NCBI GenBank assembly: GCA_019508115.1
Contig: JAEKMC010000072.1
Location: forward strand, 1-32,255
Length of the DNA: 32,255 bases
Direction of reading: 5' to 3'
DNA from: Sphingomonas sp.
GTDB lineage: Bacteria; Pseudomonadota; Alphaproteobacteria; Sphingomonadales; Sphingomonadaceae
Part shown: positions 24,635 to 29,438 of the stretch, piece after piece
Layout of the letters: each line of letters begins with the position of its first letter
Numbering within the stretch: position 1 is the first letter of the stretch
The notes under the pieces: model-generated
Databases searched by the model: none
The model's input: the letters and a program-made list of their open reading frames with translations, nothing else
Told to the model about the DNA's origin: nothing
Program-made: the position numbers and the translations under genes

Positions 24635-25597
24635 ATGAAGTGGCTTCGTCTTCTCCTCGATCGAACGGCCGTCCTGTTCCTTGGCGTCGCGGCCGGGGTG
24701 GCGATCGGCTATGCGTTCGGCAGCGGCAACGAGAAGAAGCAGGCGGTCAGCCTTGCGCCGGAAGCCGCGCCCGTGGTGGCGCCGCGCGCAACCGCACCGC
24801 CACCGCCGGCCGGCGCGGCCGCGCCCGAGGCGGAGACGCCCAAGGGCACGGTCGCCGAGCCTGCGGACACCACCCCGCCGCAAGCCGACCAGCCGTCCGC
24901 GCAGATCGCCGAGAAAGTGAAGCAGGGCGGGCAGGTGCGCGTCGGCGTGTTCGGCGACTCTTTCGGCGACGGTGTCTATAGCGCTCTCTACCGTCTCCTT
25001 CCGGCGAAGGCCGGATTCCAGGTCGATAAATATTCGCAGCCGTCGACCGGCTTCACCCGCTATCGCCGGCTCGACCTCGAGCAGCATGACGATCAGCAGA
25101 TCGACGGCCAATCGCTCGACGTGGCGGTGATCTCGTTCGGCGCCAATGACGCGCAGGGCGTGTGCGACAATGGCCATTGCGGCGCGCTGATGGGGGCTTT
25201 CTGGCAGCGCGTGATTTCGGCGCGTGTCGAATCCTACGTCGCGATGCTGCGGCGGCATGGCGCGCAGGTCTATTGGGTCGGGCTGCCGGTGATGCGCGAT
25301 CCCGCTTTCGACACGGACGCGCGCGCGATGGACGAATTCTATCGCGGTCTGATGGCGCGGCTCGACGTTCCGTATATCGAGATCCGGCCGCTCACCGCCG
25401 ACGCGCAGGGGCAGTATCAGGCTTATTATGTCGACAAGGACGGCACGCCCAAGCTGTTCCGCGCGGGCGACGGCGTGCACATGTCGATGAACGGCTATGT
25501 TCGGATCGCCAAGGGTCTGGCGGACCGGATTCGCGCGAGCGTCGCCGCGGCCAAAGGTGGCGCGGGGGCGGGCGCGGACAGCGGCGAGGCACAATGA
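24635..25597 (+). CDS. DUF459-like SGNH hydrolase, membrane-anchored, first gene of the O-acylation cluster
   Basis: This 320-residue protein has one N-terminal membrane anchor (about 9-29), a Pro/Ala-rich linker (about 38-95) and an SGNH/GDSL-type domain in the periplasm. The catalytic Ser is in VFGDSFGDG (Ser109), an SFGANDAQG block supplies the Asn, and DGVHMSMNGY near the C-terminus supplies the Asp-His pair. DUF459-like proteins of this type often occur next to MBOAT acyltransferases. It could add or remove acetyl or other acyl groups on a polysaccharide or peptidoglycan. I chose the ATG at 24635 because the anchor starts there; a TTG at 24596 is less likely. The stop overlaps the next ATG (ATGA, 25594-25597), giving tight coupling to a second SGNH gene. 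Confidence 0.87.
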   Translation: MKWLRLLLDRTAVLFLGVAAGVAIGYAFGSGNEKKQAVSLAPEAAPVVAPRATAPPPPAGAAAPEAETPKGTVAEPADTTPPQADQPSAQIAEKVKQGGQVRVGVFGDSFGDGVYSALYRLLPAKAGFQVDKYSQPSTGFTRYRRLDLEQHDDQQIDGQSLDVAVISFGANDAQGVCDNGHCGALMGAFWQRVISARVESYVAMLRRHGAQVYWVGLPVMRDPAFDTDARAMDEFYRGLMARLDVPYIEIRPLTADAQGQYQAYYVDKDGTPKLFRAGDGVHMSMNGYVRIAKGLADRIRASVAAAKGGAGAGADSGEAQ

Positions 25598-26934
25598 TCG
25601 CGCTCGCCGCCTTTGCCGCCGCGGCGATGCCCGTCAGCGGACTGGCGCAGGCGGAGACGTTGCGGCCCTTCTTCGCCAAGCTCGCGCACGCCAACATGCG
25701 GCCGGTCCATATCCTCCAGATCGGCGACAGCCATACCGCCGGCGATGCGATCACCAGCGCATGGCGCGACTTGCTCCAGCAGAAATATGGCGCGGCGGGG
25801 CGGGGCGTGCTGGCGCCCGGGCGGCCGTTCGACGGCTACATCACGCATGGCGTGACCGTGACGATGTCGCCGGGATGGAAGATTTCGAGCGATTTCGGTG
25901 CGACCTGGTCGATGCCGTCGCCGCCCTTGGGGTTGAGCGCGTTCACGCTTACCAGCCAGAGCGATGGCGCGACGATGGCGCTGCTGGCCGACCCGAATGA
26001 GGCGTTCGACCGCTTCGTGGTGTGCGCGATCGTCAAGCCGGGCGCGGGGCATCTCACGCTCCACGCGGGTACCGAGGCCGCGACGTTCAATCTCGCGTCC
26101 GCGACCGAGCGTCCTGAATGCCGCACGATGAAACTGGCGCAGCCGGCGACGACCGCGGACCTGACCGTTTCGGGCGGTCCGGCGACGCTGACCTCGTGGG
26201 CGACGTTCAAGGATGGGGGAGGGGTCGCGCTTTCCAATCTGGGCGTGGTCGGATCGCAATTGATCCACTGGGCGCGCACCGACGATGCGGTTCTCACGGA
26301 GGAACTGGCCAATTACAGGCCGGACCTGATCGTGCTCGCCTTCGGCACCAACGAGGGCTTTTCGCCGCGCGTGAACGAGTTCGAATATGAGGTCACGTTG
26401 CGCGCGCAGATCGGGCGCATCCGCCGGCTTGCGGGCAATGTGCCGATCCTGGTCCTGGGCGCGCCCGATGCGCTGAGCCGCCGCGGCGAGATGCGCGCCA
26501 ACACGAGCACGGGCGAAACTTCGCCCGAGTGCGGGGCGCCCGTGGCGCAGCCGGTACAGGCCGATCCCGGCGTGATCGAGACGATCATGTCGCGACTCAG
26601 GAACAGTGTCGGCATGGCGCCGAGTGAACCGCCGCCCGCGTCGCAGCCGGCAACTCCGGTGCCCACGCCTGTGGCAACCGGAACCAGCAAGGGCCCGCTA
26701 TTTCCGCCGGCCGGTCTCAAGCTGGTGCGCGACGTCCAACGCCGCATCTCGCGCCAGCTGAACGTCGCGTTCTGGGACTGGGAAGCGCGCCTGGGCGGGC
26801 GCTGCTATGCCGACGCCTGGGTACACGCCAATCCGCCGCTGATGCGGGGCGATTATGTGCATTACACGATGACGGGCGGCAAGGAGGTCGCGCAACGGCT
26901 GGAGGACGATCTCGACAGGGCGATGGCGCGGTGA
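25594..26934 (+). CDS. Second SGNH/GDSL-family exported protein (possible O-acetyltransferase or esterase)
   Basis: This 446-residue protein has a signal peptide (1 to about 20) and a second SGNH domain. LQIGDSHTAGD (41-51) holds the nucleophile Ser46, LIVLAFGTNEGF the Asn block, and GDYVHYTMTGG near the C-terminus the Asp420/His423 pair. Between blocks I and III a beta-rich insert of about 150 residues may be a carbohydrate-binding module, as in PatB/Ape1-type or AlgX-like proteins. A Pro/Thr/Ser-rich linker (about 345-370) splits the C-terminal part. It could complete the transfer of acyl groups delivered by the MBOAT protein 25 bp downstream. Acceptor and donor are unknown. The ATG at 25594 is fixed by the signal peptide and by the 4-bp overlap with the preceding gene. 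Confidence 0.87.
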   Translation: MIALAAFAAAAMPVSGLAQAETLRPFFAKLAHANMRPVHILQIGDSHTAGDAITSAWRDLLQQKYGAAGRGVLAPGRPFDGYITHGVTVTMSPGWKISSDFGATWSMPSPPLGLSAFTLTSQSDGATMALLADPNEAFDRFVVCAIVKPGAGHLTLHAGTEAATFNLASATERPECRTMKLAQPATTADLTVSGGPATLTSWATFKDGGGVALSNLGVVGSQLIHWARTDDAVLTEELANYRPDLIVLAFGTNEGFSPRVNEFEYEVTLRAQIGRIRRLAGNVPILVLGAPDALSRRGEMRANTSTGETSPECGAPVAQPVQADPGVIETIMSRLRNSVGMAPSEPPPASQPATPVPTPVATGTSKGPLFPPAGLKLVRDVQRRISRQLNVAFWDWEARLGGRCYADAWVHANPPLMRGDYVHYTMTGGKEVAQRLEDDLDRAMAR

Positions 26935-26959
26935 ATTTTGACCAGCGGGGCATCTGCTG

Positions 26960-28375
26960 ATGCTTTTCCCCACGCTCAGCTTTGGCCTGTTCTTCCTGGT
27001 CGTGTTCACCGTGGTCTGGGCCGCGAACGGATCGAACGAGTGGCGCAAGATCCTGCTGCTGGTCGCGAGCTGGATTTTTTACGGCGCTTGGGACTGGCGC
27101 TTCGTCGCGCTGCTGATCGGATCGGCCTTGCTCAATTGGGGTTCGGCCGAGCTGATCTGGTTTAACCGCGAAGCCTCGGCCGGCCGCCGCCGCGCGATCA
27201 TGATCGCCGGCGTGACGGGCAATCTGGCGATCCTCGGCTTCTTCAAATATTATGGTTTCTTCGTCGAGCAGCTGGGCGATATCCTGCACGCGGTAGGCTA
27301 TGCGCGCGACCTGCCGCTGATGCAGGTGGTGCTGCCGGTCGGCATCTCCTTCTTCACGTTCCAGGGCATGTCCTATCTGGCGGATGTCCATGCCGAGCGG
27401 CTGGCGCCCGCCAAGTTGCTCGACGTCACTTTGCTCATGTCCTTCTTCCCGCATCTGGTGGCGGGGCCGATCGTGCGCGGGTCGGACCTTCTGCCCCAGT
27501 TCGAGGAAAGCCCGCGGCTGACGCGCGACATGGCGAGCATGGGGCTGGTGCTGATCGTCTGGGGTCTGTTCAAGAAGGCGGTGGTGGCGTCGGAGCTTTC
27601 GACCGGGCTGGTCGACCCGGTCTTCTTCGATCCCGCCGCGCATTCGCGGCTGGACCTGATCGCCGCCGCTTATGGCTATGCCGTCCAGATCTATTGCGAC
27701 TTTTCGGCCTATAGCGACATGGCGATCGGGATCGCGGCGTTGCTCGGCTACAAATTCCCCCTCAATTTCAATCAGCCTTATCGCGCGCAATCGCTCCAGG
27801 ACTTCTGGCGGCGCTGGCACATCAGCCTGTCGAGCTGGTTGCGCGATTATCTCTATATCGGCGCACTCGGCGGCAGCCGGAGGGGTTTTGCCCGCCAATG
27901 TTGCAACCTGATGGCGACGATGCTGCTTGGCGGCCTGTGGCACGGCGCCAAATGGACCTTCGTGATCTGGGGCGGGCTGCACGGCGGCGTACTCGCGCTC
28001 GAGCGGATCTGGGATCGCATCCGCCCGCACGGTTTCCCGCGGCTGCCGAGGGTGCTCGGCATCCTGATCACCTTCCACATCGTGCTGGTCGGTTGGATCT
28101 TCTTCCGCGCGGAGAGTTTCGACGCGGCGATCGCCTATCTGAAGGGGATCGGCGCGGCGGGCGTCGCGAGCGATGTGCTGACCCCGCTCGCGTGCGGGCT
28201 GATCCTGTTCGGGATGGCGATCCACTTCACGCCCGCCAATCTGGGGCAGAGGCTCGCGCTGCAGGTCCGTCTGCTTCCCGCATGGGGGTTGGGGCTGCTG
28301 GTGGGCATCACGATCCTGATCGTCGATGCGATGCGTTTCGAAGGCGTCGCGCCCTTCATTTATTACCAATTCTAG
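26960..28375 (+). CDS. MBOAT-family O-acyltransferase (AlgI/PatA-like)
   Basis: This 471-residue polytopic inner membrane protein has about 10-12 hydrophobic segments. It shows MBOAT signatures: LNWGSAELIW, FFKYYGFFVEQLG, VVLPVGISFFTFQGMSYLAD (123-142), FFPHLVAGPIVR, FSAYSDMAIGIAALLGYKFP, FWRRWHISLSSWLRDYLYI (282-300, with His287) and MLLGGLWHGAKWTF (321-334) with the invariant His328. Such proteins move acyl groups, usually acetyl from acetyl-CoA, across the membrane to an SGNH partner that acylates alginate, cellulose, peptidoglycan or other polymers. The two SGNH genes immediately upstream and the small membrane protein downstream make that reading likely, but the polymer cannot be named from this window. 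The gap to the upstream gene is 25 bp. Confidence 0.94.
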   Translation: MLFPTLSFGLFFLVVFTVVWAANGSNEWRKILLLVASWIFYGAWDWRFVALLIGSALLNWGSAELIWFNREASAGRRRAIMIAGVTGNLAILGFFKYYGFFVEQLGDILHAVGYARDLPLMQVVLPVGISFFTFQGMSYLADVHAERLAPAKLLDVTLLMSFFPHLVAGPIVRGSDLLPQFEESPRLTRDMASMGLVLIVWGLFKKAVVASELSTGLVDPVFFDPAAHSRLDLIAAAYGYAVQIYCDFSAYSDMAIGIAALLGYKFPLNFNQPYRAQSLQDFWRRWHISLSSWLRDYLYIGALGGSRRGFARQCCNLMATMLLGGLWHGAKWTFVIWGGLHGGVLALERIWDRIRPHGFPRLPRVLGILITFHIVLVGWIFFRAESFDAAIAYLKGIGAAGVASDVLTPLACGLILFGMAIHFTPANLGQRLALQVRLLPAWGLGLLVGITILIVDAMRFEGVAPFIYYQF

Positions 28376-28385
28376 GGATTCGCGC

Positions 28386-28712
28386 ATGCCGCAGGACACG
28401 CCATCGCCGATCGACCTGCCCGAGCCGGAACTCGAAGAATCCGGGCTGGGCTGGTCGTTCGGCGTAATCCTGATCGCGAGCCTGTTCCTGCTCTGCGCGA
28501 ATGCCGCCTCGTTGCGCGACTGGATCGACGATCAGCCGCCCAGTCCGGCGCAGCAGCAGGCGGCCGAATATGCCGACCAATGGGTCGATACGACCGAGCA
28601 ATTCGGGATCGGCCTGCCGCGCAAGGCCATGCACGACCAATGGAAGCGCGCCGAAGAGGCGCGCTTCCATGGATCAGCGCAAAAGGAAGGGGCTACGGAC
28701 GCCATTCAGTAA
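28386..28712 (+). CDS. Small single-pass membrane protein of the MBOAT cluster, function unknown
   Basis: This 108-residue protein has an acidic/proline-rich N-terminus, one membrane helix (about 22-42, GWSFGVILIASLFLLCAN) and a hydrophilic, charged tail ending in AEEARFHGSA and about ten further residues. I recognise no domain. It starts 10 bp after the MBOAT stop, and an AGGGA ribosome site overlaps that stop, so the two are almost certainly translated together. Position suggests an accessory or scaffold subunit of the O-acylation machinery, perhaps holding an SGNH protein near the MBOAT pore. It is not a duplicate of either SGNH anchor. No catalytic residues are apparent. Confidence 0.8.
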   Translation: MPQDTPSPIDLPEPELEESGLGWSFGVILIASLFLLCANAASLRDWIDDQPPSPAQQQAAEYADQWVDTTEQFGIGLPRKAMHDQWKRAEEARFHGSAQKEGATDAIQ

Positions 28713-28720
28713 CGCCGTCA

Positions 28721-28801
28721 TGCCAGCGGAACCTGGCATCCATCTCCTGGCCGAGCCGCATCGGCTGAAGGTTGGGAGTTGGACCCCAGCTTTCGCTGGG
28801 G
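28721..28801. repeat. Degenerate pair of palindromic intergenic repeats
   Basis: TGCCAGCGGAACCTGGCA (28721-28738, imperfect stem) and CCCCAGCTTTCGCTGGGG (28784-28801, perfect, followed by CGGCGAT) lie in the 117-bp gap between the small membrane protein and the convergent cell wall hydrolase. The second is identical to copy 3 at 11304-11321; the first is a variant. The placement at a convergent gene junction fits the other copies. Confidence 0.8.
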
Positions 28802-28829
28802 CGGCGATGTAGAGGTAGTGCTTGGCCGC

Positions 28830-29438
28830 TTAGCGGTAGAAGATGTGCGCGCCGACCGCGGCGACGCGCTCGCGCGTGCGGAAGAAGGCGTTGGTGGGCG
28901 CATAAGAAGCGCGGAAATAGATAGCGCCGGGCGCAACTGGTTCAGCCTCACCGGCGAGCACTTCATGTGCCACCTCGACCGCTTCCTGCCAACCATCGCT
29001 ATCCTTGCGCGGGTGGAAGCTGGCGATGCGGAAATATTGCCCCTTCTGGTTGACGATCTCGCAGATCGAATCGCCGAAGCGGCCGCCGACCTTGAGCCGA
29101 TTCACCAACGTCTGGGCGACCGCGATCTTGCCCTCGCGCGGCTGGTTGCCGGCTTCGTGCATCACGACCTTGGCCATGCATTCGACGGACGCGGTATCGG
29201 CCGACGTTGCGACCGGAGCCGCCTGCGAGGCCGTATCGTCCGAAGCGGCCTGCGTCGGGGCGGCCGGCTGCTGCGCAACGGGCGCCGGGGCGGGCGCGGT
29301 CGCACTCAGGTCGTAAGCGAGGAGGGGGGTGGCCGCGACATATTCGGCGGCCGAGCTGCCCGAGGACAGCGCAAAGCAGGATAGAGCGAGGCCGAGACCC
29401 GCACCCGAAGCAAGCGTTATGGGACGCTTGAAATGCAT
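28830..29438 (-). CDS. SleB/CwlJ-like cell wall hydrolase
   Basis: This 202-residue protein has a signal peptide (1 to about 30), a linker rich in Pro, Ala and Gln (about 47-83), and a C-terminal Hydrolase_2-type domain (about 85-202). The domain begins VECMAKVVMHEAGNQPREGKI, with a glutamate (Glu95) in the place of the catalytic residue of SleB/CwlJ lytic enzymes, and continues with VAQTLVNRL, ICEIVNQKGQYF and AIYFRASYAPTNAF, the usual end of the fold. It should act in the periplasm on peptidoglycan; family members are spore cortex or vegetative wall hydrolases, and the vegetative role applies here. It is leftward and convergent with the O-acylation cluster, which could be a link if peptidoglycan is the acylated polymer. 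The ATG is at 29438. Confidence 0.9.
   Translation of the reverse strand: MHFKRPITLASGAGLGLALSCFALSSGSSAAEYVAATPLLAYDLSATAPAPAPVAQQPAAPTQAASDDTASQAAPVATSADTASVECMAKVVMHEAGNQPREGKIAVAQTLVNRLKVGGRFGDSICEIVNQKGQYFRIASFHPRKDSDGWQEAVEVAHEVLAGEAEPVAPGAIYFRASYAPTNAFFRTRERVAAVGAHIFYR

Follow-up and report, generated by a model that had tools for sequence, protein, structure and literature searches.

Which envelope polymer is served by a four-gene cluster that joins two SGNH proteins to an MBOAT protein, and what does its fourth product, a small membrane protein, contribute? The cluster lies at positions 24635 to 28712 of a 32,255-nucleotide contig of Sphingomonas sp. (JAEKMC010000072.1), the whole of which is referred to here as the window. 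We propose, with a probability of roughly 80%, that it is an operon for peptidoglycan O-acetylation and de-O-acetylation (OAP), and that its fourth protein is the membrane module of PatB, split off as a separate gene, which docks PatB on PatA. The three-enzyme core is of an ordinary, known kind, and what is new is the fourth gene. An earlier note, written from the nucleotide sequence of the window, had singled out the small protein without offering a role for it.

All four genes are on the + strand and closely spaced, in the order patB, ape1, patA and small gene. The patB-like gene (SGNH1, 320 residues; 24635..25597) overlaps the ape1-like gene (SGNH2, 446 residues; 25594..26934) by 4 bp at an ATGA. 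A gap of 25 bp precedes the patA-like gene (MBOAT, 471 residues; 26960..28375), and the small gene (108 residues; 28386..28712) begins after another 10 bp. These coordinates agree with the packing described in the earlier note, whose suggestion of a possible envelope O-acylation system is also borne out by the PatB, Ape1 and PatA family identities. It had the families of the two different SGNH proteins and the MBOAT right, but missed that the first is PatB-like, that the second is Ape1-like and that the MBOAT ends in FIYYQF. The four-gene order was found again in other genomes, including stretches that lack the outer neighbours PDT and AI-2E, and the cluster is therefore more than a chance arrangement. 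The note had also advised a check of co-occurrence in relatives, where a missing neighbourhood would have counted against its idea; the neighbourhood proved to be conserved.

The MBOAT is assigned to its family by Pfam (E 4.5e-27) and is related to DltB in the PDB (E 4e-28). The two histidines to which the earlier note drew attention, His287 and His328, are invariant in all 25 sequences of alignment A2 (which excludes L019), as is the C-terminal acyl-shuttle hexapeptide FIYYQF (F466-I-Y468-Y-Q-F471). Conserved His together with a C-terminal FXYXXF is the combination that characterizes PatA. In Campylobacter PatA the Tyr of this motif is acetylated, and PatB uses such a peptide, in the account given in PMC12148441; the FIYYQF of the window fits the motif.

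SGNH1 is a DUF459 protein (Pfam, E 2.5e-49) with an N-terminal membrane anchor (DRTAVLF...), a Pro/Ala-rich linker and an SGNH transferase domain. It matches the NCBIfam PatB model at E 6.7e-14, and its score of 52 bits, far under the equivalog cut-off of 580, places it by sequence as a divergent member of the PatB type. The predicted triad of Ser109, Asp279 and His282 (GDSF and DGVH) is invariant in the 23 sequences of alignment A4 and conforms to the GDS(H/F) plus DG(I/V)H pattern of PatB-type SGNH proteins (the Ape2 family). The only PDB chains with E < 0.01 for the A4 profile were 8gr2 (E 1e-27; titled GDSL esterase CJ0610C of Campylobacter jejuni, a DUF459 protein), 8tlb (Campylobacter PatB; E 6e-27) and 7tjb/7trr (Neisseria PatB; E 6e-22). 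As judged by eye, a transmembrane (TM) anchor and Pro/Ala-rich linker form the PatB N-terminus in the window, in sphingomonads and in L084-L087 and L091, and a signal peptide-like start followed by a linker does so in L110-L113 and L115-L122; the alphaproteobacterial PatBs inspected in this way appear to be without the N-terminal helical module discussed below. Additional PatB searches added one new PatB genome in the order of G250 and three in the order of G434, and a search of the class of G434 at E <= 1e-25 returned no new genome. DUF459/PatB-like proteins with no MBOAT match within ~1.5 kb occur in other alphaproteobacteria (L057-L063, L066, L068-L073, L075-L082).

SGNH2 matches Lipase_GDSL_2 (Pfam, E 1.9e-10) and looks like an Ape1-type O-acetylpeptidoglycan esterase. 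It has a signal peptide-like start, GDSH at 44-47, a beta-rich insert, GTNE at 251-254 and D420-x-x-H423. In the 23 sequences of alignment A3, from which the truncated Ape1 proteins of L019, L032 and L042 were excluded, GDSH and GTNE are invariant and Asp420 and His423 are conserved at >= 90%. The A3 profile matched PDB chain 4k3u, labelled GDSL-like Lipase/Acylhydrolase, in three stretches (E 8.9e-41), and also 8gld/8gkd (E 4e-10), of which 8gkd is titled Ape1 of Campylobacter jejuni. We take 4k3u to be meningococcal Ape1. A fourth chain in the list, the GTPase 2j0v (E 0.0033), was set aside as a chance match. GDSH, Dx(V/T)H and, in subfamilies a and b, a beta-rich segment after motif I are the marks of Ape1, and all are present in SGNH2; its insert agrees with the segment used in PMC1199599 to define Ape1a/b. 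Several loci vary this theme. L117 (G759) and L178 (Nitrobacter winogradskyi) have PatB, PatA and the small gene in that order and no Ape1 match, so that acetylation there would proceed with the customary esterase missing from the cluster. L174, from a Hyphomicrobiales metagenome-assembled genome, has three PatB-like domains upstream of patA, a separate small gene and no Ape1 match. L196 and most of L200-L233, largely of Bacteroidota type, have one or two Ape1-like proteins before PatA and no PatB or small-protein match, an arrangement close to the ape1b-ape1c-pat order described in PMC1199599.

These assignments bear on the acceptor. OAP clusters are described as consisting of PatA, PatB and an Ape protein (PMC6174289, PMC1199599), and a cluster of this make-up with a PatB-like SGNH1 and an Ape1-like SGNH2 favours peptidoglycan, which is thus the probable acceptor. 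The earlier note had left peptidoglycan and an exopolysaccharide side by side; the former is now preferred and the latter disfavoured. That the acetyl groups go to an exopolysaccharide or another envelope glycan is an improbable alternative, which draws on the fact that MBOAT-SGNH pairs also serve alginate and cellulose (PMC12148441) and that the acceptor is predicted here from gene content. Against it stand the solved relatives, which lead from SGNH1 to PatB and the Campylobacter DUF459 protein and from SGNH2 to Ape1-like proteins. Five other MBOATs examined in the family (L049-L053) have no PatB, Ape1 or small-protein match. They terminate in F(I/L/M)YFQF, which has no diagnostic value, because FIYFQF is also the C-terminus of other alphaproteobacterial PatAs. 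Only one MBOAT was found in the genome of the window, an assembly that is 71.7% complete.

The small protein has an acidic N-terminal tail with the motif SP[IV]DLP, one TM helix ending at Asn39, then Trp46 and two amphipathic helices. The invariant columns are M1, P8, A31, L35, N39 and W46, and no Tyr is among the nearly invariant ones. The AlphaFold2 model has helices at 18-38, 40-48, 54-72 and 77-105, with a mean pLDDT (predicted local distance difference test) of 84.5. The absence of a recognized family, reported in the earlier note, was confirmed in Pfam and NCBIfam for the window protein. Across 26 members, Pfam returned six families, each from one member (best E 0.0097) and none over its curated cut-off. 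The PDB yielded no sequence relative (best E 0.11), a fold search of the model against the PDB likewise found nothing (best E 1.9), and no description of the protein was found in the open-access literature searched, subscription papers lying outside that search. An N-in/C-out topology is suggested by the flanks of the TM helix, with more Lys plus Arg on the N-terminal side in 12 of 17 members outside A1.

The small gene travels with patA. Among 59 relatives (the window genome included) it was found in 12, including all seven genomes of the window's genus. In 119 genomes of the family, PatA occurs at >= 63% identity in 22, and 18 more have only weaker matches of at most 48%; the cut-off was placed in this gap after viewing the list. 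The small protein was also found in 22 of the 119, and these are the identical set, although the genomes share ancestry and are thus not independent. In all but one of the 22, a gap of 8-46 bp separates patA from the start of the small gene (start codons were chosen by script), and another four genomes from the window's genus have gaps of 9, 14, 138 and 152 bp. The exception is G033, in which the small gene lies ~187 kb from patA and adjoins hydrolase and AI-2E genes. Its locus (L020, 4796-6975) places it between a ChpT-like histidine phosphotransferase open reading frame and a transposase-like one, both named by eye; with patB-ape1-patA ~187 kb away, the operon has been split and both halves kept.

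The pattern extends to the class. In a sample of 289 genomes, 15 are of PatA type at E <= 1e-160, a threshold set after viewing the list (the gap runs to 1e-136), and the small gene follows patA in 14 of them. The first hidden Markov model (HMM; E <= 1e-3) detected seven of these; a wider one added the other seven, each immediately downstream of patA. In the fifteenth genome, G631, patA is the last gene before the contig end. No PatB, Ape1 or small-protein match was seen in the stretch fetched for G220 and G787, the PatA matches that come next in the list. In G533, which stands outside the 15, a 4.2 kb contig begins with a small-protein match and carries no patA. These genome searches scored 16 candidates per genome for the class (first HMM) and 40 for the family, so absences are weaker than presences. 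Among 80 PatA loci, 24 are named as alphaproteobacterial, spanning Sphingomonas, Brevundimonas, Novosphingobium, Parvibaculum, Stella, Nitrobacter and others, and 23 encode the small protein as a separate gene; in L175 it is 1.4 kb downstream of patA and not adjoining. The twenty-fourth, L156, has it on another contig of its genome (E 5.7e-31). At least two of the 24 (L159 and L170) are contigs of genomes (G431 and G363) that had themselves contributed small proteins to the HMM described below. No significant small-protein match was obtained in seven OAP loci from other classes, where the best (E 0.053) was the PatB N-terminus of L089. The small gene thus accompanies nearly all alphaproteobacterial OAP clusters sampled.

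The origin of the small protein can be read from fusions. We searched 9,676 stop-to-stop frames of the 80 PatA loci (~3-12 kb each, drawn around patA) with an HMM built from 43 alphaproteobacterial small proteins, using E < 0.1, a threshold chosen after viewing the list. The 34 matches comprise 24 separate genes (the 23 alphaproteobacterial ones and L197, from an unassigned bacterium, right after PatA) and ten domains in the same frame as the SGNH domain of PatB, N-terminal to it and just after PatA. The ten fused loci (L179, L182-L185, L189, L191-L193 and L195) are from Dehalococcoidia, Nitriliruptorales, Solirubrobacterales, Acidimicrobiales, Microthrix, Actinomycetes, Frankia and an unassigned 'bacterium' (L179), and the best fused domains reach E 3.9e-9, 4.2e-6 and 3.5e-5. 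Profile-profile alignment of the ten fused domains with the separate proteins (hhalign) gave a probability of 96.7% and E 3.3e-10 over 73 columns, compared with 0.3 and 1.0% for control comparisons with the alphaproteobacterial PatB N-terminus. The real fused domains score 15.8-39.9 bits, and full within-segment shuffles score at most 12.9 (997 scored of 1,000). Shuffling the part after the TM helix alone lowered the median from 20.95 to 8.35 bits, so the likeness is more than that of a TM helix. A supposed PatA-small fusion in L113, a 665-residue frame, was rejected, the MBOAT being in another frame.

Those of the fused proteins that were aligned are PatBs by the same marks as SGNH1. Alignment A5 contains 11 proteins, namely six of the ten fused matches and five PatBs from the same locus set that escaped the HMM, and all of them match DUF459 and the NCBIfam PatB model. 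In L184, the sole member with match positions given, both models align to the SGNH part, and no model covers the N-terminal part. The AlphaFold2 model of this protein (mean pLDDT 75.3) has helices at 43-60, 62-71, 76-94 and 99-107, a low-confidence linker and the SGNH domain, and its best PDB match is PatB 7tjb (E 1.4e-14). The helix series is alike in L184 and the small protein, except that the last helix has 9 residues in the former and 29 in the latter. With homology to the fused module over the TM helix and the helices that follow, the small protein is most likely the separate-gene form of a PatB N-terminal membrane module.

A different account, which we consider quite improbable, is that the small protein has a regulatory or stabilizing role linked to the operon, with the convergent hydrolase as one conceivable target, and that it resembles the PatB N-terminus only through a shared single-TM architecture. 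The hydrolase in question is a SleB/CwlJ-type cell wall hydrolase on the - strand at 28830..29438 (Pfam Hydrolase_2, E 3e-18), a neighbour that we exclude from the proposed machine. Of 25 PatA-type loci, 16 have it in convergent orientation to the small gene, several of them without PDT and AI-2E, and in G033 the small gene sits in the hydrolase neighbourhood with patA elsewhere. The small gene is, however, kept without a hydrolase match in the stretch fetched in L015, L017-L019, L036 and L039, its likeness to the PatB N-terminus runs over 73 columns and beyond the TM helix, and all 34 HMM matches are downstream of patA or fused to PatB, in a database drawn around patA. The earlier note had taken the hydrolase as a pointer to peptidoglycan; the neighbour is real, but it is weak evidence on the acceptor. 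The convergent arrangement may mean that acetylation and cell wall cleavage are functionally paired, or may be a remnant of old synteny. The interval that separates the hydrolase from the small gene contains, at 28715-28812, an imperfect palindromic stretch (e.g. CCCAGCTTTCGCTGGG, by eye), possibly a terminator or a repetitive extragenic palindromic (REP)-like repeat.

Reading the small protein as a split-off PatB module, we hypothesize that the four products form one acetylation machine. Sequence comparison shows the family identities, the catalytic residues, the strict co-occurrence and the homology to the PatB-fused domain; the chemistry of the cycle would be that of the published Neisseria and Campylobacter PatAB work. 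PatA would use cytoplasmic acetyl-CoA to acetylate Tyr468 in its C-terminal FIYYQF on the periplasmic face. Ser109 of PatB would accept the acetyl group from Tyr468 and pass it to the C6 hydroxyl of N-acetylmuramic acid, from which Ape1 would take it off again. The small protein, with one N-in TM helix and, beyond it in the periplasm, two amphipathic helices, would hold the catalytic domain of PatB on PatA, so that the alphaproteobacterial transferase would be a three-protein complex. Docking is proposed on the grounds that this layout is that of the PatB N-terminal region in the AlphaFold model of Campylobacter PatAB, in which a TM helix and two amphipathic membrane-surface helices lie against helices 1 and 17 of PatA (PMC12148441). 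A conserved Glu7 of PatA makes a contact in that account. It was considered as a marker of docking type and set aside for its mixed pattern: Glu7 is present in five of seven non-alphaproteobacterial N-termini (those five being the readable ones), position 7 is Asp or Glu in 9 of the 17 alphaproteobacterial PatAs listed, and it is Ser in the window.

Several observations weigh against this proposal. Campylobacter jejuni PatB is active in vitro without its N-terminal 113 residues (PMC12148441). Since PatB of sphingomonads is already tethered by a TM segment, the need for an anchor cannot by itself explain a small protein there. Against Neisseria-type PatB N-termini, hhalign gave the small protein probabilities of 2.7, 9.5 and 16% over at most 35 columns, with 42 of the 43 small proteins retained in the second comparison; one profile in that comparison scored 19.9, and the highest of 200 permutations scored 18.9. 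As these values (16% at best) do not establish homology to the Neisseria-type region, the docking step draws on analogy and on the fusions from other phyla. Seven of the ten fused matches are weak when taken alone (E 4e-4 to 0.07), and some shuffled copies with an intact TM part reach 26.6 bits, so that this part makes up a good share of the strongest scores. Lys plus Arg are in excess on the N-terminal flank in only 11 of the 26 A1 members. DUF459 occurs without an MBOAT within ~1.5 kb in 22 of 30 loci and on its own is no proof of PatB, and no Ape1 match was found in some PatA loci that have the small gene (L117, L174 and L178).

More broadly, and only tentatively, at slightly under even odds, we suggest that PatA-PatB acetyltransferases in general have the PatB membrane module as a third functional unit, one that must be present for the active site of PatB to be held or gated over PatA, and that in Alphaproteobacteria it is encoded separately, behind patA, as the obligatory partner of a soluble or loosely tethered PatB. 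The origin read from the fusions gives a conserved gene with no name a function that can be tested, and the role of the PatB N-terminal region, dispensable in vitro, becomes testable through one small gene. On the split-module reading, a third functional component of the machine has probably gone unnoticed until now.

Comparison with known systems places the cluster among OAP operons and sets the fourth gene apart. The patA-patB-ape1 clusters of Neisseria and Campylobacter have the three enzyme families and their active-site motifs in common with the window, from which they differ in that the window order is patB-ape1-patA, a fourth gene is added and the window PatB appears to lack the N-terminal helical region. 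A further parallel is Zymomonas mobilis, in which ape2, later renamed PatB (PMC6174289), and ape1b both precede pat (Weadge et al. 2005, PMC1199599), as their counterparts do in the window. The Ape1b type of this organism also has a ~100-residue segment with much beta-structure after motif I, as does SGNH2. By this gene order the three-gene core was already known in a sphingomonad, and the description of the cluster in PMC1199599 makes no mention of a fourth gene. In the Actinomycetota/Chloroflexota-type loci (L182-L185, L189, L191-L193 and L195), PatB bears the same N-terminal module, but it is fused, the order is patA-patB and there is no Ape1 match.

The Dlt system (DltB-DltD-DltX) resembles the window in combining an MBOAT, an SGNH protein and a single-pass small protein. 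That the small protein is a DltX-like acyl carrier shuttling acetyl between PatA and PatB is very improbable: it is a single-pass microprotein adjoining an MBOAT, much as DltX acts with DltB and DltD (PMC12148441), but it has neither a C-terminal FXYXXF with an invariant Tyr nor any other conserved Tyr, and PatA bears its own FIYYQF. The acyl-Tyr motif is thus on DltX in the Dlt system and on PatA in the window. PatA/PatB-type pathways are described in PMC12148441 as having no DltX-like microprotein; the cluster in the window does come with a membrane microprotein, which we would see as the separate form of the module that other phyla fuse to PatB.

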